In this document: positions 13,738-58,886 of the stretch, in pieces
Layout: each line of letters starts with the position of its first letter
Position numbering within the stretch: position 1 is the stretch's first letter
Source of the DNA: SAR324 cluster bacterium SAR324-CTD7B
GTDB taxonomy: Bacteria; SAR324; NAC60-12
Assembly (NCBI GenBank): GCA_002082305.1
Contig: LSNO01000093.1
Coordinates: 1-64,000, forward strand
Direction: 5' to 3'
Length of the DNA stretch: 64,000 bases
Notes under the pieces: model-generated
The model's database searches: none
Seen by the model: the letters and a program-made list of their open reading frames with translations, nothing else
Told to the model about the DNA's origin: nothing
Position numbers and translations under genes: made by a program

Positions 13738-15336
13738 TTGAACCACTTGACATTCATTCCTTTGAAAAACAATCCTGAGGAGTCCGGACGCATTCTGAAA
13801 AACGCGCGGACGGTTACAATCTTTACCCTTTTTTCACGAATCCTGGGTGCAGCGCGGGATTTAGTGATTGCGCATGTCTTTGGTGCCGGTTGGGTGACGG
13901 ATGCTTTTGTGCAGGCTTTTACAATTCCGAATGTCCTGCGCCGCCTGACTGCAGAGGGTTCGATGACTCTTGCTTTTCTTCCTCTCTACACAGAAATCCG
14001 TGAACGCAAGGATCCTGAAGCTGCAAAGAAATTTGCGGCAAAAACTTTAGGGCTCGTCCTGGCAGCAACAACTATTCTGACCGGCTTGGGAATTCTTTTC
14101 AGTCCTCAGTTGGTTTATCTGTTTGCGGCAGGTTTTGCTTCAAGTCCGGAAAAATACGACTTGACGGTGCTGCTGACCAGAGTCATGTTTCCATATTTGA
14201 TTTTTGTTTCGCTCGTTGCCTGGGCAATGGGGGTACTCAATGCCGAAGGCCGTTTTGCAGCTCCGGCTGCAGCACCGATTTTATTAAATATCGGAATTAT
14301 CGGGGCAGCATTCGGTATTTCTCCATTGTTGGAAGAACCGATGATCGGCATCGGTATCGGTGTTCTTCTGGGTGGAATCGCGCAAATATTAATTCAAATA
14401 CCCTCACTGAGAAAAGTTGGGCAATCCTTCAAACCGCAAAATTTTCTCAATGATGAGAATATTCAGCGCCTGCTGAAACTGCTTGGTCCGTCTTTGCTGG
14501 GAGTGGCGGTCTATCAAATCAATATCATTGTGCTGCGCAACCTCGCCAGTTTCATGCCCACAGGGCAAGTCACGCATTACTACAATGCCAGCCGACTCTC
14601 GGAACTGACTTTGGGTGTATTTGCTTTTGCAATCACTTCAGCCGGCTTTCCGGAATTAAGTCAGCACACTGCTGCCAAAAACTGGGAGAAAATCCGCAAC
14701 ACCCTGCGCTTTACCATGTCCACAACTTTACTGGTCATCTTTCCGGCCAGCGTGGGTTTGGCGGTTGTTGCAGAACCGATTGTGTCAATGCTATATCTGC
14801 ATGGAGCGTATGCATGGAGCGACGTTCAAAATACCTCGCTCACGCTGCAGGCTTTTGCATTGAGTATTCCTGCGGTAGCAATGATTCGGTTGCAGACTTC
14901 AGTGTTTTTTTCACTTAAAGATACCCGCACTCCGGTCAAAGTTTCAATGTTCAGTATTTTGCTGACAGGGCTTCTGGGTTGGTGGTGGAGTCAAAGCCTG
15001 GAAATATTTGGCCTGGCCCTGGGGCTTGCTGCAGGAACCTGGTTTCAGTGGATTCTGTTGTCGCTCTTTTTGCTCAAGCAATCCGAATTACGTAAAAATT
15101 GGTGGCCCCTGCGGTCGTCTTTGCTTTATATGCTGGCTTCAGCAGGAATGGGAGGTTTTGCCTGGTATTACAGAGGATATGGATCATGGGAAAACGGACC
15201 TTTTCTTGTTTACAACTGGGTGATTTTTGGAGGAATACTGCTTGGTTCAGCCTTGCTTTACGGATTATTGCTTTTAGTTTTCAGGGAAGAGCAAGTGCTG
15301 AGATTGAAAAACCATATGCTACAAATTAACACCTAA
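13738..15336 (+). CDS. murJ: Lipid II flippase MurJ
   Basis: MurJ moves lipid II across the inner membrane for peptidoglycan synthesis. The 532-residue protein has about 14 membrane segments and the MOP-superfamily signature near the N-terminus (TIFTLFSRILGAARD, FGAGWVTDAF, PNVLRRL, FLPLYTE). Length is as usual for the family. The start is TTG at 13738; a second TTG three codons later is equally possible, and no ATG fits because the first membrane helix begins soon after. The 3' end overlaps the convergent M20 peptidase gene by 18 bases. Confidence 0.93.
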   Translation: MNHLTFIPLKNNPEESGRILKNARTVTIFTLFSRILGAARDLVIAHVFGAGWVTDAFVQAFTIPNVLRRLTAEGSMTLAFLPLYTEIRERKDPEAAKKFAAKTLGLVLAATTILTGLGILFSPQLVYLFAAGFASSPEKYDLTVLLTRVMFPYLIFVSLVAWAMGVLNAEGRFAAPAAAPILLNIGIIGAAFGISPLLEEPMIGIGIGVLLGGIAQILIQIPSLRKVGQSFKPQNFLNDENIQRLLKLLGPSLLGVAVYQINIIVLRNLASFMPTGQVTHYYNASRLSELTLGVFAFAITSAGFPELSQHTAAKNWEKIRNTLRFTMSTTLLVIFPASVGLAVVAEPIVSMLYLHGAYAWSDVQNTSLTLQAFALSIPAVAMIRLQTSVFFSLKDTRTPVKVSMFSILLTGLLGWWWSQSLEIFGLALGLAAGTWFQWILLSLFLLKQSELRKNWWPLRSSLLYMLASAGMGGFAWYYRGYGSWENGPFLVYNWVIFGGILLGSALLYGLLLLVFREEQVLRLKNHMLQINT

Positions 15337-16590
15337 TAATTCCAGCGTTGATGCCGCCATCACTTTGGCTGCCGTAACCATATCATCAATCACTATGTAT
15401 TCGTCCGGCTGGTGAGCAAGGTCAAGGATGCCTGGACCGTAGGCAATACAGTCATGCAGATGTCCGATGCGGGCAATGTGTTTTTGATCATAGGTACCGG
15501 GAGAAATGACATGTTCAGGAGTTTTGCCCAGGATGCTCTGAATTGCAGAACTGACGGCTTGGACAACCGGGGCATCCGCGTCGGTCATGGTGGGTAAAAA
15601 TTCCATAATGTCCCGGATTTGATAGCGAAAATTCGGACGGGAATCAGCGAGTTCATCCAATAAGTTTGTGACTTCTGCTTTGACTTCCGTGATATCTTCT
15701 TCAATTAAAAAACGTCTGTCCATAATGAGTCTGCAGGAGTCCGGAACACAAGGGCTCGGTAAGCCTTCAAAAGATTCGGCTTCACCTCCGTGAACTGCCT
15801 GCAGATTCAAAGTGGATCGCCTTGCTCCTTCTGGAACAACCGGCATTCGTGTTTGTTTTTTGTCCAGTGCAGGAAAAAGCCGTGACTCAATTAGCTCCAA
15901 AAATGCACTCATGTGTCGAATGGCGGAATCGCCGAGAAAAGGCATTGAGCCGTGTGCGATTCGACCGAATGTTTCAACTTCCGCCCACCATGCACCCCGG
16001 TGTCCGAGACAGACACGATCAACATTCAAAGGTTCCGGAATAATTACATGATCGACCCGCGGTTTTGAGAAAAACCCTTTTTCTGCCAAAAAGGCAACTC
16101 CACCGTATCCTCCGGTTTCTTCATCAACAGTTCCGGAAATTTCGATTGCGCCCGGAAAATCAATGCTTTCTTCCAGGATAGCCTCCATGGCAATTACTGC
16201 GGATGCTAGTCCGCCCTTCATGTCGCAGGTGCCGCGCCCATAAATTTTTCCGTCACGCACCAGTCCCTCAAAGGGGTCAACAGTCCAGCCGCTGCCAGTA
16301 ACAACAACATCAAGGTGTCCGTTGAAATGAACACATGGTCCGGAATGTTTGCCTTCAATACGTGCAATCACATTATGACGGGGGTAACGCTCTGTGTCTC
16401 CGGGGGTATTATTGGCGCGTTCATAAAGCAGTGAAAAACCACTTTTCGCCAAACGGTTTCCCAGCAGTTCCGCGCATAGTAAATAATCCTCTCCCGGAGG
16501 ATTGATAGTTGGAATACGTACTAATTCCTGTGTAAATGAAACCAGTTCTTCACGTTTGGAGTCGATTCTGGCAAACAGTGATTCAATCAT
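15319..16590 (-). CDS. M20-family metallopeptidase (ArgE/DapE group)
   Basis: The 423-residue protein belongs to the ArgE/DapE/ACY1 family of zinc amide hydrolases. Visible residues are the zinc motif GHLDVV (about 96-101), GTCDMKGG, the catalytic pair in VDEETGG, a PEP-containing motif near 196, and the late zinc histidine in LDLAHQPDEYI. The dimerisation domain lies in the middle. Family members remove acetyl or succinyl groups from acetylornithine or succinyl-diaminopimelate, or hydrolyse small N-acyl amino acids. The sequence alone does not settle the substrate, and no arg or dap biosynthesis gene adjoins it. The ATG at 16590 gives the usual N-terminal helix. Confidence 0.85.
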   Translation of the reverse strand: MIESLFARIDSKREELVSFTQELVRIPTINPPGEDYLLCAELLGNRLAKSGFSLLYERANNTPGDTERYPRHNVIARIEGKHSGPCVHFNGHLDVVVTGSGWTVDPFEGLVRDGKIYGRGTCDMKGGLASAVIAMEAILEESIDFPGAIEISGTVDEETGGYGGVAFLAEKGFFSKPRVDHVIIPEPLNVDRVCLGHRGAWWAEVETFGRIAHGSMPFLGDSAIRHMSAFLELIESRLFPALDKKQTRMPVVPEGARRSTLNLQAVHGGEAESFEGLPSPCVPDSCRLIMDRRFLIEEDITEVKAEVTNLLDELADSRPNFRYQIRDIMEFLPTMTDADAPVVQAVSSAIQSILGKTPEHVISPGTYDQKHIARIGHLHDCIAYGPGILDLAHQPDEYIVIDDMVTAAKVMAASTLELLGVNL

Positions 16591-17079: not shown

Positions 17080-18342
17080 TTAGGTGACTTCGTGTTTCTG
17101 CCTGAAACGTTCTTCCCGCCATTCTTCCGTTTTGAGTACGTCAGCTAAAGCTTCCGCGGCATCCCACACATCAGTGTAGCGTAAATAAAGGGGAGCAAAA
17201 CCAAAACGCATACTTCCCGGCTCTCTGAAATCGGCGATTATTTTTCTGGCAATAAGAGCCTGAATGACAGCAAAACCATTTTCAAAATGAAGGGTGACTT
17301 GAGAGCCTCGTTTATCATGATCAGTTGGGCTCTGCAGAGTTACACCATAATTACGACATCCACTTTCAATAAGTTCAATAAATAGTTGAGTCAGACGCTG
17401 ACTTTTTTTTCGCACTTGCTGAAGATCGACTTCCTGCGCAATTTCAAGACCGGCCTGCAGTCCCCTCAGAGATAAAACAGGTTGTGTTCCTGTCTGGAAA
17501 CGACGAATGCCTTCTGCAGCATGGAAATTTTCTTCAAACTCAAAAGGACGTGCGTGTCCCCACCATCCTGAAAGAGGATTCTCAGCTTCGTTCTGGTGCC
17601 GCTTTGCCACATAGATAAAGGCGGGCGATCCCGGACCACCATTCAGATATTTGTAAGTGCAGCCAACCGCAAAATCCACACCCCATTGGTCAAGTTCTAC
17701 CGGCAAAACTCCTGCACTGTGACAGGTGTCCAGCACAAATAAAGCTCCTGCGTCATGAGTTTTTTGGACAAGTTCTTCAATGTGCAGGATTTCCCCTGTA
17801 CGGTAATTAACATGCGAAAACACGACTACCGCGACCTGATTGTCAATTAATTCTTCCAGTGAGTTTCCATCTTTGCCCAACAAACGCCTTTGAATGTTTT
17901 GATGAGTTGACGTGACTCCTTCCAATATGTAAAGATCAGTCGGAAAACTGTCAGCTTCGGAGATCATCACTGTGCGTTCCGGACGTAGGGTCAATGCGGC
18001 ATGGACGGTTTTAAACAGGTTTAGTGAAGTGGAGTCAGAAACAATAACTTGTCCGGAAGCAGCGCCGACAACAGGTGCTATTAATTCCCCTAGAGTTTCC
18101 GGCAACTCCCACCAGCCGGCCTTGTTCCAACTTGTTATGAGGTCTTCGGCCCACTCTTTCCGGATAGCCTGCTCCAGTTGTTCGAGTGCCTTTTTTGGCA
18201 TCGGGCCCAAAGAGTTTCCATCCAGATAAATCAGTCCTTGCGGCAAATAAAATGCCCCCTGCCAGCTGCGCAAAGGATCTGCCGCATCCTCTCTTTCACA
18301 AGCAGTTCTGGATTCAAGTAAATAAGAGATGTTGATCGGCAT
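17080..18342 (-). CDS. kynU: Kynureninase
   Basis: Kynureninase is a PLP enzyme that cleaves kynurenine to anthranilate and alanine in tryptophan breakdown. The 420-residue protein has the PLP lysine at about Lys231 in YKYLNGGPGSPAF, the upstream cofactor-binding LDTCHSAGVLP (about 204-214), and conserved segments YLDGNSLGPMP near the start and RFQTGTQPVLSLRGLQ. Length matches the family. Other genes of the kynurenine pathway (tdo, kfa) are not in the window. The ATG at 18342 starts 111 bases downstream of the LysE-type gene on the same strand, with an inverted repeat between them. Confidence 0.93.
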   Translation of the reverse strand: MPINISYLLESRTACEREDAADPLRSWQGAFYLPQGLIYLDGNSLGPMPKKALEQLEQAIRKEWAEDLITSWNKAGWWELPETLGELIAPVVGAASGQVIVSDSTSLNLFKTVHAALTLRPERTVMISEADSFPTDLYILEGVTSTHQNIQRRLLGKDGNSLEELIDNQVAVVVFSHVNYRTGEILHIEELVQKTHDAGALFVLDTCHSAGVLPVELDQWGVDFAVGCTYKYLNGGPGSPAFIYVAKRHQNEAENPLSGWWGHARPFEFEENFHAAEGIRRFQTGTQPVLSLRGLQAGLEIAQEVDLQQVRKKSQRLTQLFIELIESGCRNYGVTLQSPTDHDKRGSQVTLHFENGFAVIQALIARKIIADFREPGSMRFGFAPLYLRYTDVWDAAEALADVLKTEEWREERFRQKHEVT

Positions 18343-18453: not shown

Positions 18454-19092
18454 TTATCCTTGATGTAAAATTCCGAGAAAAATCAGACCGTCTCGAAACA
18501 GCATAATCGCGAATCCAATTAATGCAAAACCAAGGAATTGCATGATACGCCGATACAATATTCCGTGCAGGAAATTTCTTGATTTTCCTGCTGCAATTGC
18601 GAGCAAAAGTTTGACTCCACACAAGCCTAAATAAAAACTGAAAAGGAAAGTTATTCCGGAACCCAAAGTCTGTTGAAATGAGCGAACCATCAGAGGTGCT
18701 CCCACAGTAAACCAAAAAAGGTATGGATTGGGATTAACTAAATTTGCAATCATTAATTCTTTCAGGAGTAGCGGGCGGGGTGTAAAATCCGTAATTTCTG
18801 CATTGGTGGTTCGAATACTATTTGTGCCCAAATATAGTAGAAAAACTGATCCAAACAGAGAAATTGCACCCAGCAGGATATTCATATTTGAAATTTGGGC
18901 GAATAAGAATCCGGAAATTAATACGACAGGGGTATCTGTCAGTAAAGGAATACAAGCCACTTTTGCACCGGCGCGGATGCCGTGACGTAATGTTTCAGAA
19001 ATGATAAGTATCAACATTGGCCCGGGAGCAATTCCGGACGGAGCACCCAGGAGCAATCCAATAGTAAAGATTCCCCAAATACTATCGATCAT
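18454..19092 (-). CDS. LysE/RhtB-family amino-acid exporter
   Basis: The 212-residue protein has about six membrane segments and the LysE-family N-terminal signature GAPSGIAPGPMLILIIS. The family exports amino acids and derivatives such as lysine, threonine or homoserine. Its ATG overlaps the stop of the DapF-like gene by four bases (ATGA), so the two are translationally coupled. That suggests export of a product or substrate of that enzyme. The sequence does not show which amino acid. Confidence 0.87.
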   Translation of the reverse strand: MIDSIWGIFTIGLLLGAPSGIAPGPMLILIISETLRHGIRAGAKVACIPLLTDTPVVLISGFLFAQISNMNILLGAISLFGSVFLLYLGTNSIRTTNAEITDFTPRPLLLKELMIANLVNPNPYLFWFTVGAPLMVRSFQQTLGSGITFLFSFYLGLCGVKLLLAIAAGKSRNFLHGILYRRIMQFLGFALIGFAIMLFRDGLIFLGILHQG

Positions 19093-19949
19093 GCAGGAAT
19101 CTCAAAATCCAGACACTCTAAATCAAGGGTCATTTTGCCGATTCTAGTGACCGAGCCTTTCATAATGATATTATAATTTTCGCTGATTGTGATGTCGATT
19201 TGCCCTCCCGGCATTAAGACCGCGATTTCAGCATCGCACAAGCCCAGCCGATGAGCCACTGATGCCGCCGCACAACTGCTGCTTCCTGATGCCAAAGTGT
19301 AACCTGCACCACGTTCCCAGATTTCGATCCGGATCGTGTTGCGGTTCAGTACTTCCAAAAACTGCACATTTGTACGGTTTGGAAAGCTCGGATGCGTTTC
19401 AATCAAAGGCCCGAGCCGTCTGGTTTCGTCTGCCGATATTTTTCGCTGCAGCACCACACAGTGCGGATTACCGATGGTGGCGGAGCAGAATGTTAATTTT
19501 TCACCGTTTATTTCCAATGTTTCATTCAACACTTCCCGACTTTCCCCCGTGACCGGAATAATGTTGCTTTGAAAACTTACAGAGCCCATTTCGACAGTTA
19601 CGGACTGACCGGAACTGTCTACCTGTGCGCTGACAATACCTCCGGATGTAACGATTTTAAATTTTGACTGGTAAACCAGTTTCCGGTCCCAGAGCGAACG
19701 CGCAAAAATGCGTAAACCGTTTCCGCTTTTTTCAGCCGTGCTGCCGTCCGGATTATATATTTTAAGTGTGAAGCAGTTTCCGGAGTCGTCTTTTCCTCCC
19801 ACTAATATACCGTCTGAACCAAGTCCAAAGTTGCGGTGACATATTTTACGAACTTGTTCTGATGTCAGTTCATTTTCCGAAAAGTCCGGATGTTCACTGG
19901 TTGATACCAGGTAATCATTGCCAAGAGCATGATATTTGAGAAATTCCAT
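19089..19949 (-). CDS. DapF-like protein with both catalytic cysteines replaced by serine
   Basis: The 286-residue protein has the full DapF fold signature: HALGNDYLV at the N-terminus, GLGSDGILVG, NPDGSTAEKSGNG, IGNPHCVV, and ERGAGYTLASG. Diaminopimelate epimerase uses two cysteines, one in the motif C-G-N and one in A-C-G. Here both are serine: Ser75 (codon AGC) and Ser221 (codon TCA). The rest of the active-site loop is well kept, so this is not decay. It may therefore be a divergent isomerase rather than the cell-wall/lysine enzyme, or a serine-based DapF. It is coupled by a four-base overlap to an amino-acid exporter. No other lysine-pathway gene is close. A plain annotation as DapF would be risky. 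Confidence 0.85.
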   Translation of the reverse strand: MEFLKYHALGNDYLVSTSEHPDFSENELTSEQVRKICHRNFGLGSDGILVGGKDDSGNCFTLKIYNPDGSTAEKSGNGLRIFARSLWDRKLVYQSKFKIVTSGGIVSAQVDSSGQSVTVEMGSVSFQSNIIPVTGESREVLNETLEINGEKLTFCSATIGNPHCVVLQRKISADETRRLGPLIETHPSFPNRTNVQFLEVLNRNTIRIEIWERGAGYTLASGSSSCAAASVAHRLGLCDAEIAVLMPGGQIDITISENYNIIMKGSVTRIGKMTLDLECLDFEIPA

Positions 19950-53444: not shown

Positions 53445-54260
53445 GTGGCGTCGCACGTAGCTGAGGGCAGTCAAAGGGGCTATATTATACCGATAGGGGG
53501 GGCTGAAAATAAAAGGAGAAAGCCTCTTATTTTGCAAAAGTTTGCCGAACTATGCGGAGGTAAAAACGCTCGTCTGGCAATTATTCCGACTGCCTCAAAA
53601 CTCAAAGAAACTGGCCAAAATTACATTGATATTTTCAGGGACATAGGGGTTGATTACTGTGTAAGTCTCCCGATTGAAGAACGCTCTGACAGCGAATGTG
53701 TAGAATATCTACAAGAACTCAATGAAGCGAGTGGGATTTTTGTGACAGGAGGCAATCAGTTACGTTTGTCCACTATTATGGGTGGTACTCCCGTTGCGCA
53801 GGCAATTCGACGAAGAAATGCGGTTGGTGTTCACTTTGCCGGAACTTCTGCGGGCGCGGCAATAATTCCGGAACATATGATCGCAGGGGGTAAGGCAGGG
53901 CCAACTCCACGTGAAGGCGGGGTGATCTTTGCTCCCGGACTGGGATTGACAAACAAGATAGTGGTAGATCAGCACTTCCGGCAGCGAGACCGTTTAGGCC
54001 GGCTGCTTTCTGCAGTGGCTTTCAATCCGTTTGCAACCGGAATCGGTATTGATGAAAACACTGCAGCCTTTATTGATCCGGAAGGTATGTTGGAAGTTGT
54101 AGGTTCTGGTGCAATTACCGTTGTTGATCCCAGCGAACTGTCTCATTCTTCTATGGAATCAGAAAACAGAGGAAAGGCCATTAACCTGACCAATTTACGA
54201 TTGCATCTTTTAACAAGTGGTGCAAAATACGATATCAATTCCAGGCAGGTTTTTAAATGA
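53445..54260 (+). CDS. cphB: Cyanophycinase
   Basis: Cyanophycinase is a serine exopeptidase of the S51 family that cuts cyanophycin into beta-Asp-Arg dipeptides. The 271-residue protein has the nucleophile Ser135 in GTSAGAA, the upstream GIFVTGGNQLRL and the DQHFRQRDRLGRLL segment that carries the catalytic histidine. Length fits the family. The start is GTG at 53445 with an AGGATG box upstream. It is the first gene of the cyanophycin cluster, 43 bases before cphA. Confidence 0.93.
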   Translation: MASHVAEGSQRGYIIPIGGAENKRRKPLILQKFAELCGGKNARLAIIPTASKLKETGQNYIDIFRDIGVDYCVSLPIEERSDSECVEYLQELNEASGIFVTGGNQLRLSTIMGGTPVAQAIRRRNAVGVHFAGTSAGAAIIPEHMIAGGKAGPTPREGGVIFAPGLGLTNKIVVDQHFRQRDRLGRLLSAVAFNPFATGIGIDENTAAFIDPEGMLEVVGSGAITVVDPSELSHSSMESENRGKAINLTNLRLHLLTSGAKYDINSRQVFK

Positions 54261-54303
54261 TGAATTTCTTCCAAATATTTTCTTTAGATTCAAGTGAAGT
54301 TTT

Positions 54304-57111
54304 ATGAAGATTCTTTCAACCAATGTTTTTCAAGGTCCAAGCTTGTATGCCCATTTCCCGGTGATTAGACACGTTTTGGATTTAGGAGTGCTTGAAGAAT
54401 GGCCCTCCACGCGTATTGGGCAGGATTACGTTGATCAGTTAGTTGAAATACTGCCGGGACTGAAAGAACATGGATGCTCCTATCGTATTCCCGGTGGGTT
54501 CATTCGTCGATTACGTGAAGATGATGGTACATGGATGGGACACATCATGGAGCATGTTGCTTTGGAACTGCAGGGCATTGCAGGGTCTGAGGTAACATTT
54601 GGCCGCACCCGCTCCACAGGCAATCCCGGCGAATATAACATGGTGTTCCAGTACATGCAGCGGGATGTAGGCTTGAAAGCCAGTGAACTCGCACTGAGGT
54701 TGCTTCTGTGTCTGCTTCCGGACTCACTCAAAAAACAACTGGATACTCCCCCTTCTGCTGATTTTAATTTTGAAGAGGAGCGCGATGCTTTCATTCGCTT
54801 TGCACAGCGTCATGAATTTGGACCCAGTACAGCCTCTTTAGTCAATGCTGCCAAAGAGCGTGGAATTCCATACCTGCGACTGAACCGGTTTAGCCTTGTG
54901 CAGTTTGGTCATGGAAAATATCAACGCCGAATACAGGCCACAATCACCAGTGAAACTCGGCAGATTGCTGTAGTCATTGCCGGTGATAAAGAAGAAACCC
55001 ACACCATACTGTACGATCTTGGCCTGCCCACCACCATGCAGCGTCTGGCCTATAGTGAAGAGGAAGCGGTCAGTCAAGCAGAAAATCTTGGATTCCCTGT
55101 GGTTGTGAAACCACTCGATGGCAACCATGGACGTGGCGTCTCGATCAATCTCATTAGCGATGAGCAAGTTGTATTGGGTTTTAATGAAGCTCGTGCCCAA
55201 AGCAATAACGAGGCGATCATTATCGAAAATTACGTTACGGGTTTTGATCATCGAATGCTGGTGGTCAACGGAGAGTTGGTTGCCGTTTCCAAACGTGTTC
55301 CGGGACACGTAGTAGGCGATGGAGAAAAAACTATTGAGGAACTGGTGGAAATTGTCAATAGTGATCCTCGCCGTGGAATTGGTCACGAAAAAGTACTGAC
55401 TCGTCTGAAGTTTGATGAGCAGGCGGAAAGACTGATGAAAAAATCTGAATACAGCAGTCAAACAGTTTTAACCAAGGGTGAAATTTTTTACCTGCGTTCC
55501 ACAGGGAATCTATCAACTGGTGGTACAGCGATTGATTTGACAGATGTAGTGCATCCTGATAATCGAGAAATGGCTGTAAGAGCAGTAAAATCTATTGGGT
55601 TGGATGTAGGTGGAGTTGATTTTCTGACGGACGATATCACCCAGTCTTACAAGGATATTGGCGGCGCCATTGTTGAAGTTAACTCTGCTCCCGGATTCCG
55701 TATGCATGTAGCTCCCAGCGAAGGTAAACCGCGTGATGTCGCAACCTCTGTAATGGACATGCTGTTTCCACCAGGATCTCCCAGTTGTATACCGATTGCC
55801 GCTATTACAGGAACTAACGGAAAAACCACTACTGCCAGGATGCTTTCATATATCATGAAGACCAGCGGGAATACAGTGGGAATGACTTCCACAGATGGGG
55901 TTTATATAGATGGTCACCTGACTGTAAAAGGTGACATGACCGGTCCAGTTTCCTCTCAAATGGTACTCCGTGATCCATCGGTAGATGTAGCAGTGATGGA
56001 AGTTGCCCGTGGTGGAATGCTGAAGAAAGGAGTTGGATTCCCCAAATGTGATGTGGCAGCATGCCTCAATGTTTCTGCAGATCACCTCGGACTAAGAGGC
56101 ATTGATACCGTAGAACAACTTGCTCGAGTAAAGCGCATTATTATTGAAATTGCCACTGATACTGCAGTACTAAATGCAGACGATTCACTTTGTCTGGAAA
56201 TGGCAAATCATACCAAGGCGGAAAATATTTGTTATGTAACTTTAGCTGACAATCATCCTCTGGTGCGTAAACACATCCGTGCTGAAGGCAGGGCGGTAGT
56301 GCTGGAAAAGGGGCTCAATGGAGACATGATCACACTTTACGATAAGGGCGCTCATATTCCTTTGCTCTGGACACACCTGATTCCGGCAACTTTGGAAGGC
56401 AAAGCAGTACATAATGTTCAAAATGCAATGTTTGCCGCAGCTCTCTCCTTCAGCATGGGAGTGCCATTGGATGACATCCGTCATGGATTGCGTACCTTTA
56501 ACACTACTTTCTTCCAGGCTCCGGGACGCATGAATATTTTTGATGATCATCCATTTAAAGTTATCCTGGATTATGCCCATAACCCTGCAGCTTTCAAGGG
56601 TATGTGTCACCTGGTATCACGCATGGAAACTCCTGGAAAAAATATTTGTGTGATTTCCATGCCCGGTGATCGGCGTGATGAGGACATTCAGGAAGTTGGA
56701 AAAACTGTCTCTGGAGTTTTTGACCATTTTATTTGTAAAGCAGATGATGATCGCCGAAAGCGGGGTTATGACGAAATACCAAAAATGCTCCGGAAAATCC
56801 TGCTGAAAAATGGTGTTTCTGAAGACTGTATTGATGTGGTTCCGGATGAAGTTGAATCAATTCATCGGGGGTTGACTCTGGCTCAGCCAGGTGATTTACT
56901 GATGGTGTTTGGAGATAATGTCTCCCGCAGTTGGAAACAGATTGTCCACTTTAACGAAGATTTAGAGTTACCGAGTATCCAGCCAAAACAGCAACCCAAA
57001 GAGGAGGATTCAGTTGAGGCCTTTGTTGAACCATTTACTATGGTGGCCGGACAACGTATTATTCAAGATGAACGGGGAGTACGTCTTGCCAGTGAAGAGG
57101 AAGCGGATTGA
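54304..57111 (+). CDS. cphA: Cyanophycin synthetase
   Basis: CphA builds the storage polymer cyanophycin by adding aspartate to a backbone and arginine to its side chains, with ATP. The 935-residue protein has an N-terminal primer-binding domain (1-160), an ATP-grasp domain (about 190-480, with FPVVVKPLDGNHGRGV and the ligand motif IVEVNSAPGFRMH), and a C-terminal Mur-ligase-like domain with P-loop GTNGKTT at 503-509 and DYAHNPAAF. Length and order are those of CphA1-type enzymes, so both activities should be present. It lies between cyanophycinase and a second Mur-type gene. Confidence 0.96.
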   Translation: MKILSTNVFQGPSLYAHFPVIRHVLDLGVLEEWPSTRIGQDYVDQLVEILPGLKEHGCSYRIPGGFIRRLREDDGTWMGHIMEHVALELQGIAGSEVTFGRTRSTGNPGEYNMVFQYMQRDVGLKASELALRLLLCLLPDSLKKQLDTPPSADFNFEEERDAFIRFAQRHEFGPSTASLVNAAKERGIPYLRLNRFSLVQFGHGKYQRRIQATITSETRQIAVVIAGDKEETHTILYDLGLPTTMQRLAYSEEEAVSQAENLGFPVVVKPLDGNHGRGVSINLISDEQVVLGFNEARAQSNNEAIIIENYVTGFDHRMLVVNGELVAVSKRVPGHVVGDGEKTIEELVEIVNSDPRRGIGHEKVLTRLKFDEQAERLMKKSEYSSQTVLTKGEIFYLRSTGNLSTGGTAIDLTDVVHPDNREMAVRAVKSIGLDVGGVDFLTDDITQSYKDIGGAIVEVNSAPGFRMHVAPSEGKPRDVATSVMDMLFPPGSPSCIPIAAITGTNGKTTTARMLSYIMKTSGNTVGMTSTDGVYIDGHLTVKGDMTGPVSSQMVLRDPSVDVAVMEVARGGMLKKGVGFPKCDVAACLNVSADHLGLRGIDTVEQLARVKRIIIEIATDTAVLNADDSLCLEMANHTKAENICYVTLADNHPLVRKHIRAEGRAVVLEKGLNGDMITLYDKGAHIPLLWTHLIPATLEGKAVHNVQNAMFAAALSFSMGVPLDDIRHGLRTFNTTFFQAPGRMNIFDDHPFKVILDYAHNPAAFKGMCHLVSRMETPGKNICVISMPGDRRDEDIQEVGKTVSGVFDHFICKADDDRRKRGYDEIPKMLRKILLKNGVSEDCIDVVPDEVESIHRGLTLAQPGDLLMVFGDNVSRSWKQIVHFNEDLELPSIQPKQQPKEEDSVEAFVEPFTMVAGQRIIQDERGVRLASEEEAD

Positions 57112-57137
57112 AAACCCCACTATTACTGTAAGCAATC

Positions 57138-58886
57138 TTGGTGAAACTAACACTCGAAAGCTGTCGCCGTTTAACGGGTCCAAGTCTGTATTTCCAGAAT
57201 CCTGGAACTGTACTTGACGTTTTTGTTTCCGGGGTTAGGTTGGAAGATGTTGTGGCATGCTGGCAGGAAGAAGTTAATAAATTACGGGAGGCAGTCTCTT
57301 GGAAACTGTCACCCTTGCATGTCAGGGAAACACATCCACAGGGAGCGAGTTTGGCCTTCAATGCGTCTATGGACCTGGTTTACTCTGCATCTGAACTTAA
57401 TGAAGCAGCTTGGAACAACTCAGTCGCACGGCTTTATGGTGAAGTTCCTGAAGACTTCGATGGTATTGTATCAAAACTCAAAGCGCAAATAGAGCAGGAA
57501 AGCAACCCAGTCCTGCTAAAACTTAATGAGGCGGCAAACAAAAAAGGCATTCAACTACTGTCTGATGACGAAACCCTTACACTTGGCCTTGGAGTTGGCT
57601 CACAAAGCTGGTCTTTAAGGGAGCTTCCCAGTCCGGATGAGGTGGATTGGAATGCTCTCCACAACATCCCCGTAACACTTATCACCGGAACTAATGGCAA
57701 ATCTACCTCCGGTAGAATGCTAGCTGCTATTGTCAGTGCTGATGGGAAAACTCCTGGACTGACTTCTACCGACTGCATCCAGGTCGGAACTGATATTCTA
57801 GATACAGGAGATTATTCCGGACCGGGGGGAGCACTCGCGGTACTGAGTGATAAACGTGTGGAATTTGGTGTGCTTGAATCAGCGCGTGGCGGCATTCTAC
57901 GTCGGGGGCTGGGAGTGACTCAGGCTCAGGCCGGAATTATTACTAATGTAGCTGAAGAGCATTTGGGCGAATATGGTGTCCGGAGTCTCGCCGACCTTAT
58001 AGATGTAAAATTTACAATCCTACGTCCTCTTGAAATATTCGGGGGCATGCTGGTTCTCAATGCAGACGACGAAGGACTGGTGGAATACGCCAAAAATTTA
58101 AACCATCCTTTGTGTTGGTTCAGTCTGGAGAAAGACTCTCATATCCTGTATGAACACCGGAAACAGGGAGGTCCCATTTGTTATGTTGAACAGGGAAAAA
58201 TATATTTTCTGCATCACGATTCTGTCCAATTCATCCTGAATGTGAATGAAATTCCGATTACTCTAAATGGTGCTGCACGTTATAATGTAGCCAATTCTCT
58301 CGGTGTTATTGCTTTGGCCAAAAATTTGGGTTTCTCAAATGAAGTGATTGCAGGAGCACTTAAGAGCTTTCAGGGTGACCTCAAGGATAATCCCGGGCGA
58401 GGCAATTATCTGACACTTCCTCTTCCCAAACCAAATCGTTCTCAAAATTCAACAGAGGAGCAATCCTTTCAGGTGTTGATAGATTTTGCACATAATGCAC
58501 ACGGATTGAGTGCAATTTGTGAAACTCTCATCAGGCTTCCTGCAAAACGAAGGCTGGTTGTGGCTGGTCATGTTGGCAGCCATAGCGACGAAGAAATACG
58601 GGAAATGACTCGTGTGGTTGCCAAAATCAAACCGGAATATTTTTATTCTCCTGAAATGCTGGATTATTTACGGGGGAGAAAAGCAGGAGAAATCTCCAAA
58701 TTGGTTTTTGATGAATTACGGCAACTGGGATATGCTGAAGAAAAACTCAGCACGGCTAACACTTGCCTGGAGGCTGTAAAATCTGCAGTTGAGCATGTTC
58801 AAGCGGGCGACCTGCTGATGCTGGTTGGTCTTGACGAGCGAAAAGAAACTCTTGCTTATCTTGAAGAACTTAAATTGCAAATATAA
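57138..58886 (+). CDS. Cyanophycin-synthetase-like Mur ligase without ATP-grasp domain
   Basis: The 582-residue protein matches the C-terminal Mur-ligase half of CphA: P-loop GTNGKST at 184-190, GLTSTDCIQVG, VLESARGGILRRGLG, NVAEEHLGEYG, and DFAHNAHGLSA near the end. Residues 1-175 are not an ATP-grasp domain and resemble nothing I can name. It therefore could form only one of the two bonds, or work together with CphA. The start is TTG at 57138 (GTG at 57141 is the alternative), 26 bases behind cphA. Such stand-alone homologues next to cphA have, to my knowledge, no agreed function. Confidence 0.88.
   Translation: MVKLTLESCRRLTGPSLYFQNPGTVLDVFVSGVRLEDVVACWQEEVNKLREAVSWKLSPLHVRETHPQGASLAFNASMDLVYSASELNEAAWNNSVARLYGEVPEDFDGIVSKLKAQIEQESNPVLLKLNEAANKKGIQLLSDDETLTLGLGVGSQSWSLRELPSPDEVDWNALHNIPVTLITGTNGKSTSGRMLAAIVSADGKTPGLTSTDCIQVGTDILDTGDYSGPGGALAVLSDKRVEFGVLESARGGILRRGLGVTQAQAGIITNVAEEHLGEYGVRSLADLIDVKFTILRPLEIFGGMLVLNADDEGLVEYAKNLNHPLCWFSLEKDSHILYEHRKQGGPICYVEQGKIYFLHHDSVQFILNVNEIPITLNGAARYNVANSLGVIALAKNLGFSNEVIAGALKSFQGDLKDNPGRGNYLTLPLPKPNRSQNSTEEQSFQVLIDFAHNAHGLSAICETLIRLPAKRRLVVAGHVGSHSDEEIREMTRVVAKIKPEYFYSPEMLDYLRGRKAGEISKLVFDELRQLGYAEEKLSTANTCLEAVKSAVEHVQAGDLLMLVGLDERKETLAYLEELKLQI

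Follow-up and report, generated by a model that had tools for sequence, protein, structure and literature searches.

The dapF gene described here probably encodes a working diaminopimelate epimerase, which would convert LL-diaminopimelate (LL-DAP) to meso-DAP and would belong to a large clade of cysteine-free DapF proteins, a reading drawn from sequence comparison. The gene is located in the window, by which we mean the whole stretch of 64,000 nucleotides that was analysed; the window is part of a 2.8-Mb metagenome-assembled genome of the SAR324 cluster that is 87.7% complete. The features of the locus are as follows.

19089..19949, minus strand: putative Ser/Ser diaminopimelate epimerase gene dapF, 286 aa (open reading frame, TIGR00652 match, structure model)
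19728..19730, minus strand: Lys74 codon, AAA (Lys in 122/123 Ser/Ser and 0/94 Cys/Cys proteins)
19725..19727, minus strand: Ser75 codon, AGC (aligned with the catalytic Cys73 of H. influenzae DapF; helix 76-88 follows directly)
19299..19301, minus strand: Tyr217 codon, TAC (Tyr in 123/123 Ser/Ser and 0/94 Cys/Cys proteins)
19287..19289, minus strand: Ser221 codon, TCA (position of the catalytic Cys217, just before helix 222-234)
18454..19092, minus strand: LysE-family (RhtB-like) amino-acid exporter gene, 212 aa (PF01810, 62 bits)
17080..18342, minus strand: kynureninase gene (TIGR01814, 324.8 bits, cut-off 246.4)
15319..16590, minus strand: gene for an M20 deacylase of the ArgE/DapE superfamily, a possible but unproven DapE (NF009558, 709 bits)

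The window DapF scored 237.5 bits against TIGR00652 (cut-off 114.65) and 177.5 bits against PF01678 (cut-off 34.7), and both profile and structure searches matched it to DapF families alone, with no membership of a PLP-enzyme family. Its AlphaFold model (pLDDT 90.6) has the DapF fold; the best PDB match was the cyanobacterial DapF 9mro (TM 0.88), and the nearest matches were almost all DapF. The protein was aligned with H. influenzae DapF, the reference sequence being a 100% match to PDB 1gqz. Ser75, in the segment N66-PDGSTAEK-S75-GNGLRI, aligns with C73 of the reference, and Ser221, in WERGAGYTLA-S221-GSSSC, aligns with C217, which, together with the codons AGC and TCA, bears out the initial annotation in its claim that serine occupies both catalytic cysteine positions. 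The two catalytic cysteines of DapF are likewise absent from 123 clade members. In the model, Ser75 and Ser221 directly precede helices 76-88 and 222-234, the place of the DapF cysteines. The DAP ligands (the set was taken from PMC12039745; ligands are also given in PMC5885031) are retained in the window DapF and in the clade members read, namely N11, N66, N161, N194, E212, R213 and H163, which in H. influenzae numbering are the distal Asn64, Asn157, Asn190, Glu208 and Arg209 and the active-site Asn11 and His159. Given that its score is well above the cut-off of the NCBI DapF model, the protein would be named plain DapF, and annotation of this kind would not show the Ser/Ser difference.

Compared with known DapF (EC 5.1.1.7; TIGR00652, PF01678; 1gqz, 3ejx and 9mro), the Ser/Ser clade has the same fold, the same length and both half-domains, and it retains the distal DAP ligands and the active-site His and Glu, but it lacks the cysteine at either position and carries Lys74, Tyr217, Ile81, Gln196 and Glu209 of its own. 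A comparison of 123 Ser/Ser with 94 Cys/Cys proteins showed that Tyr217 (four residues before Ser221), Gln196 and Ile81 (which replaces the second cysteine of GNGxRC) are present in 123 of the 123 Ser/Ser proteins, Lys74 in 122, Ser224 in 121 and Glu209 in 118, and that each of these residues occurs in 0 of the 94 Cys/Cys proteins. Other enzymes of the DapF fold have departed from DapF in a different way. HisR, CntK, the 2,4-diaminobutyrate racemase PddB and O-ureidoserine racemase have shifted their substrate from DAP, and HisR, CntK and PddB reportedly keep the Cys/Cys pair, whereas the Ser/Ser clade has lost the cysteines but still has the DAP site. The proline racemase/hydroxyproline epimerase superfamily comprises distant fold relatives (TM about 0.7, ~15% identity), in which the catalytic pairs are Cys/Cys, Ser/Cys or Cys/Thr, so that the known pairs contain at least one cysteine.

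The Ser/Ser pair is fixed in 31 SAR324 genomes, which belong to the window's family and its sister family, and the remaining families of the SAR324 class have a Cys/Cys DapF in the genomes with a readable DapF. Two genomes of the window's family (G021, locus L050; G022, locus L051) carry a divergent Cys/Cys DapF in place of the Ser/Ser protein. When GTDB genomes were scanned with an alignment of Ser/Ser proteins, at least 566 confirmed relatives came to light, and among the matches listed the pair was Ser/Ser in 80 of 80; these come from about ten phyla (Verrucomicrobiota, Planctomycetota, Thermodesulfobacteriota, Myxococcota, Cyanobacteriota, Pseudomonadota, Armatimonadota, Chloroflexota, Actinomycetota and SAR324). 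The invariance of Tyr217 and Gln196 in the 80 listed loci is partly by construction, since the peptide patterns of the scan contained both; residues 74, 75 and 221 were outside the patterns, and HMM-based samples gave the same signature. Trees computed after removal of the active-site columns united the Ser/Ser proteins in one clade requiring one change (SH-aLRT 97), and the support was 100 in a tree with 58 Cys/Cys rows. No mixed Ser/Cys or Cys/Ser pair was found among the full-length proteins examined. A mobile origin was considered and rejected on overall sequence identity, as the plasmid and phage collections contain only DapF of <60% identity.

Serine codons of the TCN and AGY families are each present at both sites, a sign that selection acts on the serine as such, and the Ser/Ser dapF is under purifying selection (dN/dS within the genus ~0.12). 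Fixation in the 31 SAR324 genomes and at 80 of 80 listed loci, the use of both codon families and the low dN/dS together indicate that the Ser/Ser pair is more than chance. It is scarcely conceivable that the serines stem from a pseudogene in decay or from errors of sequencing or assembly. Although the window is from a metagenome-assembled genome, the pair is also found in closed isolate genomes, in single-cell genomes and in more than 120 sequences that form one clade, and we regard this explanation as refuted by that breadth, the serine codons and the dN/dS.

The finding goes further than the initial annotation in one point: it indicates a widespread, thiol-free DapF clade, which is apparently undescribed. 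Our literature search, which covered open-access papers, turned up nothing on such a clade, and the suggestion of the initial annotation that the variant is new appears to hold. A literature "dapF2" was considered as a possible Ser/Ser DapF and rejected, because it is a PLP-type protein. This DapF2, predicted in Staphylococcus (PMC9026213), would also be an alternative solution to the LL-to-meso step, but it is alanine-racemase-like and of a family unrelated to the Ser/Ser DapF.

The initial annotation had suggested a separate function for the protein, for which a second, Cys/Cys DapF in the same genome would speak. No second DapF was found in the window's genome (87.7% complete), which counts against a separate function, nor was one found in the 31 Ser/Ser SAR324 genomes or in closed genomes such as those of Adhaeretor mobilis and Verrucomicrobia IMCC26134. 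Among 50 other Ser/Ser genomes, 34 carry exactly one DapF, closed chromosomes included, and 13 have two or more DapF genes. The cyanobacteria and a few others have the Ser/Ser protein beside a Cys/Cys DapF, which points to another or a redundant role in those genomes. Dulcicalothrix and Westiellopsis (G073 and G083) each have three DapF genes, Ser/Ser together with Cys/Cys.

The lysine pathway around the Ser/Ser protein is in agreement with a role as the cell's DAP epimerase. LysA acts on meso-DAP only; besides the window's genome, most relatives have it, as do 34 of 35 other Ser/Ser genomes. A bypass via meso-DAP dehydrogenase (Ddh) was ruled out, since none was above the cut-off in the genomes scanned (0/58 and 0/50; the single weak match, in G049, was below it), and LL-DAP must therefore be epimerised for LysA to yield lysine. 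DapL, the product of which is LL-DAP, was detected in 31 of the 50 Ser/Ser genomes. The window's genome has LysA and a DapD homologue, lacks Ddh, and no MurE was found in it. The SAR324 DapD homologue scored 172-187 bits, below the DapD cut-offs, and is located as follows.

L381:1122-2258 (G000:C121), also L380, L383 and L384: SAR324 DapD homologue

It is a protein of ~380 aa in which an N-terminal DUF2322 domain (PF10084) is fused to the succinyltransferase part. Two closed genomes, G058 and G104, each have one DapF, DapL, LysA and a MurE with the DNPR motif, and have no Ddh. The MurE of 14 Ser/Ser genomes bears DNPR, the motif of DAP-adding enzymes, which alone does not settle the stereochemistry of the DAP. 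Adhaeretor mobilis has a weak MurE match without DNPR and no DapL match. For context, the MurE of Verrucomicrobium spinosum is meso-specific (PMC3681970).

At three Verrucomicrobiota loci (L133, L180 and L183) dapA and dapB come after the Ser/Ser dapF, and apart from these no common conserved neighbourhood was found outside SAR324. Among 96 Verrucomicrobiota genomes surveyed with an HMM, each at least 95% complete, 17 proved to have a Ser/Ser DapF and 72 a Cys/Cys one; 6 gave none, and 1 could not be read. Sixteen of the 17 Ser/Ser genomes had no second gene, and one had a further DapF-family gene of which the residues were unread. The two forms were largely exclusive in this phylum (Fisher p = 2e-12, kinship ignored), and this pattern, taken with the pathway context, looks like functional replacement. 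The common DapF of Verrucomicrobiota (L259-L344) belongs to a second subfamily, which is Cys/Cys and has Val for Asn157 among the distal DAP-binding residues; this subfamily also occurs beside the Ser/Ser DapF in some Desulfobacteraceae (L346, L347 and L349).

The Ser/Ser DapF could instead be a DAP binder that does not epimerise, i.e. a sensor or regulator, with meso-DAP made by an unrelated and probably PLP-dependent racemase. We think this unlikely. It would accommodate the finding that enzymes engineered from Cys to Ser lose most or all of their activity (PMC11602996, PMC8225329), and for Staphylococcus a replacement of the PLP type has been predicted (PMC9026213); however, it demands an extra, unseen epimerase wherever the Ser/Ser protein stands alone, in several phyla. 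Moreover, the catalytic face strictly retains its Ser, Lys and Tyr while serine is encoded by either codon family, which is what catalysis would lead one to expect, and the gene is placed with dapA-dapB. It is very unlikely that the protein carries out a different or wider reaction on DAP, such as the dual DAP epimerase and glutamate racemase activity of C. trachomatis DapF, which requires PLP for glutamate racemization. Many PVC bacteria are without MurI and have been suggested to use DapF for D-glutamate (PMC5885031), and the invariant Lys74 is a possible Schiff-base residue. The C. trachomatis enzyme, however, still needs its cysteines (PMC5885031), and the window DapF scored only 64.8 bits against the bifunctional model NF038284, the cut-off of which is 350.

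We also examined the neighbours of the gene. The dapF stop and the LysE start share four bases (19089-19092, ATGA on the coding strand), in accordance with the overlap noted in the initial annotation. The kynureninase gene comes next after LysE in the same direction and is a neighbour at the dapF locus in nine genomes of the genus, and the M20 deacylase gene is the third downstream of dapF, a position that is also kept in nine genomes of the genus. It had been stated that no lysine-pathway gene is near; this is strictly true, but an enzyme of the ArgE/DapE superfamily lies three genes away. A LysE gene accompanies the Ser/Ser dapF at 13 of 14 readable loci of the window's genus (g1) and at 2 of 2 in a sister genus (g4); the remaining 15 Ser/Ser SAR324 loci and the ~75 loci from other phyla lack it. 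Its confinement to one genus and one sister genus argues for a late, local addition to the operon, and the exporter was rejected as a clade-wide partner. The check proposed in the initial annotation, whether the Ser/Ser proteins form a clade that keeps its LysE neighbour, thus came out positive as to the single clade (SH-aLRT 97-100) and negative as to the exporter, which is limited to genera g1 and g4. Against each specific efflux model the LysE-family open reading frame scored far below the cut-off, and its substrate is therefore not assignable from the models.

The same distribution bears on the proposal, made in the initial annotation, of a distinct amino-acid isomerase or other activity (a lyase, for example), the product of which is exported via the LysE neighbour in a dedicated two-gene system. 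The four-base overlap and the retention of LysE at 13 of 14 loci of the genus would fit such a system, as would the alteration of both catalytic positions along with many others and the retention by cyanobacteria of Ser/Ser beside Cys/Cys. Nevertheless, we judge it quite unlikely and do not uphold the coupling to the exporter, because LysE is absent from the other 15 SAR324 loci and ~75 loci of other phyla, the Ser/Ser protein in most lineages replaces the Cys/Cys protein rather than adding to it, the order dapF-dapA-dapB is found in three Verrucomicrobiota, and the DAP-binding site is complete. If the Ser/Ser protein is the DAP epimerase, the LysE-type exporter would have joined the operon later, in one SAR324 genus.

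In DapF-like enzymes, one of the two positions has to supply a thiolate and the other a thiol. The activity of HisR is greatly reduced by C67S and C209S (PMC11602996), that of PddB is abolished by C101S and C233S (PMC8225329), and C. glutamicum DapF is nearly dead with C83A or C221A (PMC5296763); serine mutants hinder catalysis and hence have been used to trap open forms (PMC12039745). In view of this loss of most or all activity in the cysteine mutants of relatives, an epimerase with a Ser/Ser pair is mechanistically surprising. According to the Anabaena DapF paper, no basic residue is near the cysteines, and the residues that precede the first cysteine form a loop curving around the substrate. 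The Ser/Ser clade has a Lys directly before the first site, and for this reason we propose Lys74/Ser75 and Tyr217/Ser221 as the proton-transfer sites. Substrate recognition would be of the ordinary DapF type, and helices 2 and 4 would each have a serine at the N-terminus, where the proton donor or acceptor is located. Lys74, Tyr217, Ile81, Gln196 and Glu209 may supply the base strength that is lost with the thiols, and Lys74/Ser75 on one face and Tyr217/Ser221 on the other would move the alpha proton. It is possible, if rather less than probable, that the protein is a cofactor-independent, thiol-free amino-acid epimerase in which Lys-Ser (74/75) and Tyr-Ser (217/221) pairs replace the thiol-thiolate two-base machinery; Lys/Tyr assistance as the actual chemistry is a tentative and somewhat doubtful proposal.

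How a thiolate (pKa about 8.5) can remove a proton with a pKa of about 29 is studied with DapF, an enzyme of cell-wall and lysine synthesis, as the model; DapF is also the model for inhibitors directed at its cysteines. With the Ser/Ser pair distributed over about ten phyla, often as the sole copy, the reaction probably runs in nature without the textbook chemistry. A natural family that seemingly does the job of DapF without a thiol makes the question of mechanism directly testable and offers a ready comparison for enzyme design. If the reading as an epimerase is true, the Ser/Ser enzymes would be unaffected by inhibitors that target cysteine, by the thiol reagents to which the known DapF enzymes succumb, and by the disulfide switch of C. 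glutamicum DapF (PMC5296763). If the Ser/Ser proteins are not epimerases, no route to meso-DAP is known for many bacteria of several phyla, and that too would be a discovery.

A search for canonical MurE at E<=1e-30 was negative in seven genomes of family f1, that of the window (G000, G003, G004, G016, G017, G018 and G024), and SAR324 genomes outside this family have MurE at 400-475 bits. The need for meso-DAP in family f1 may thus be for lysine only. Both MreB (L222:1554-2594) and MurJ (window 13738-15336) were found, and a CphA-like ligase (window 54304-57111) is the best MurE match in family f1. As read from the sequence, window positions 53445-58886 contain a cyanophycinase-like open reading frame followed by two CphA-like ligases of 935 and 582 aa, and this region is likely a cyanophycin cluster in a marine SAR324 bacterium.
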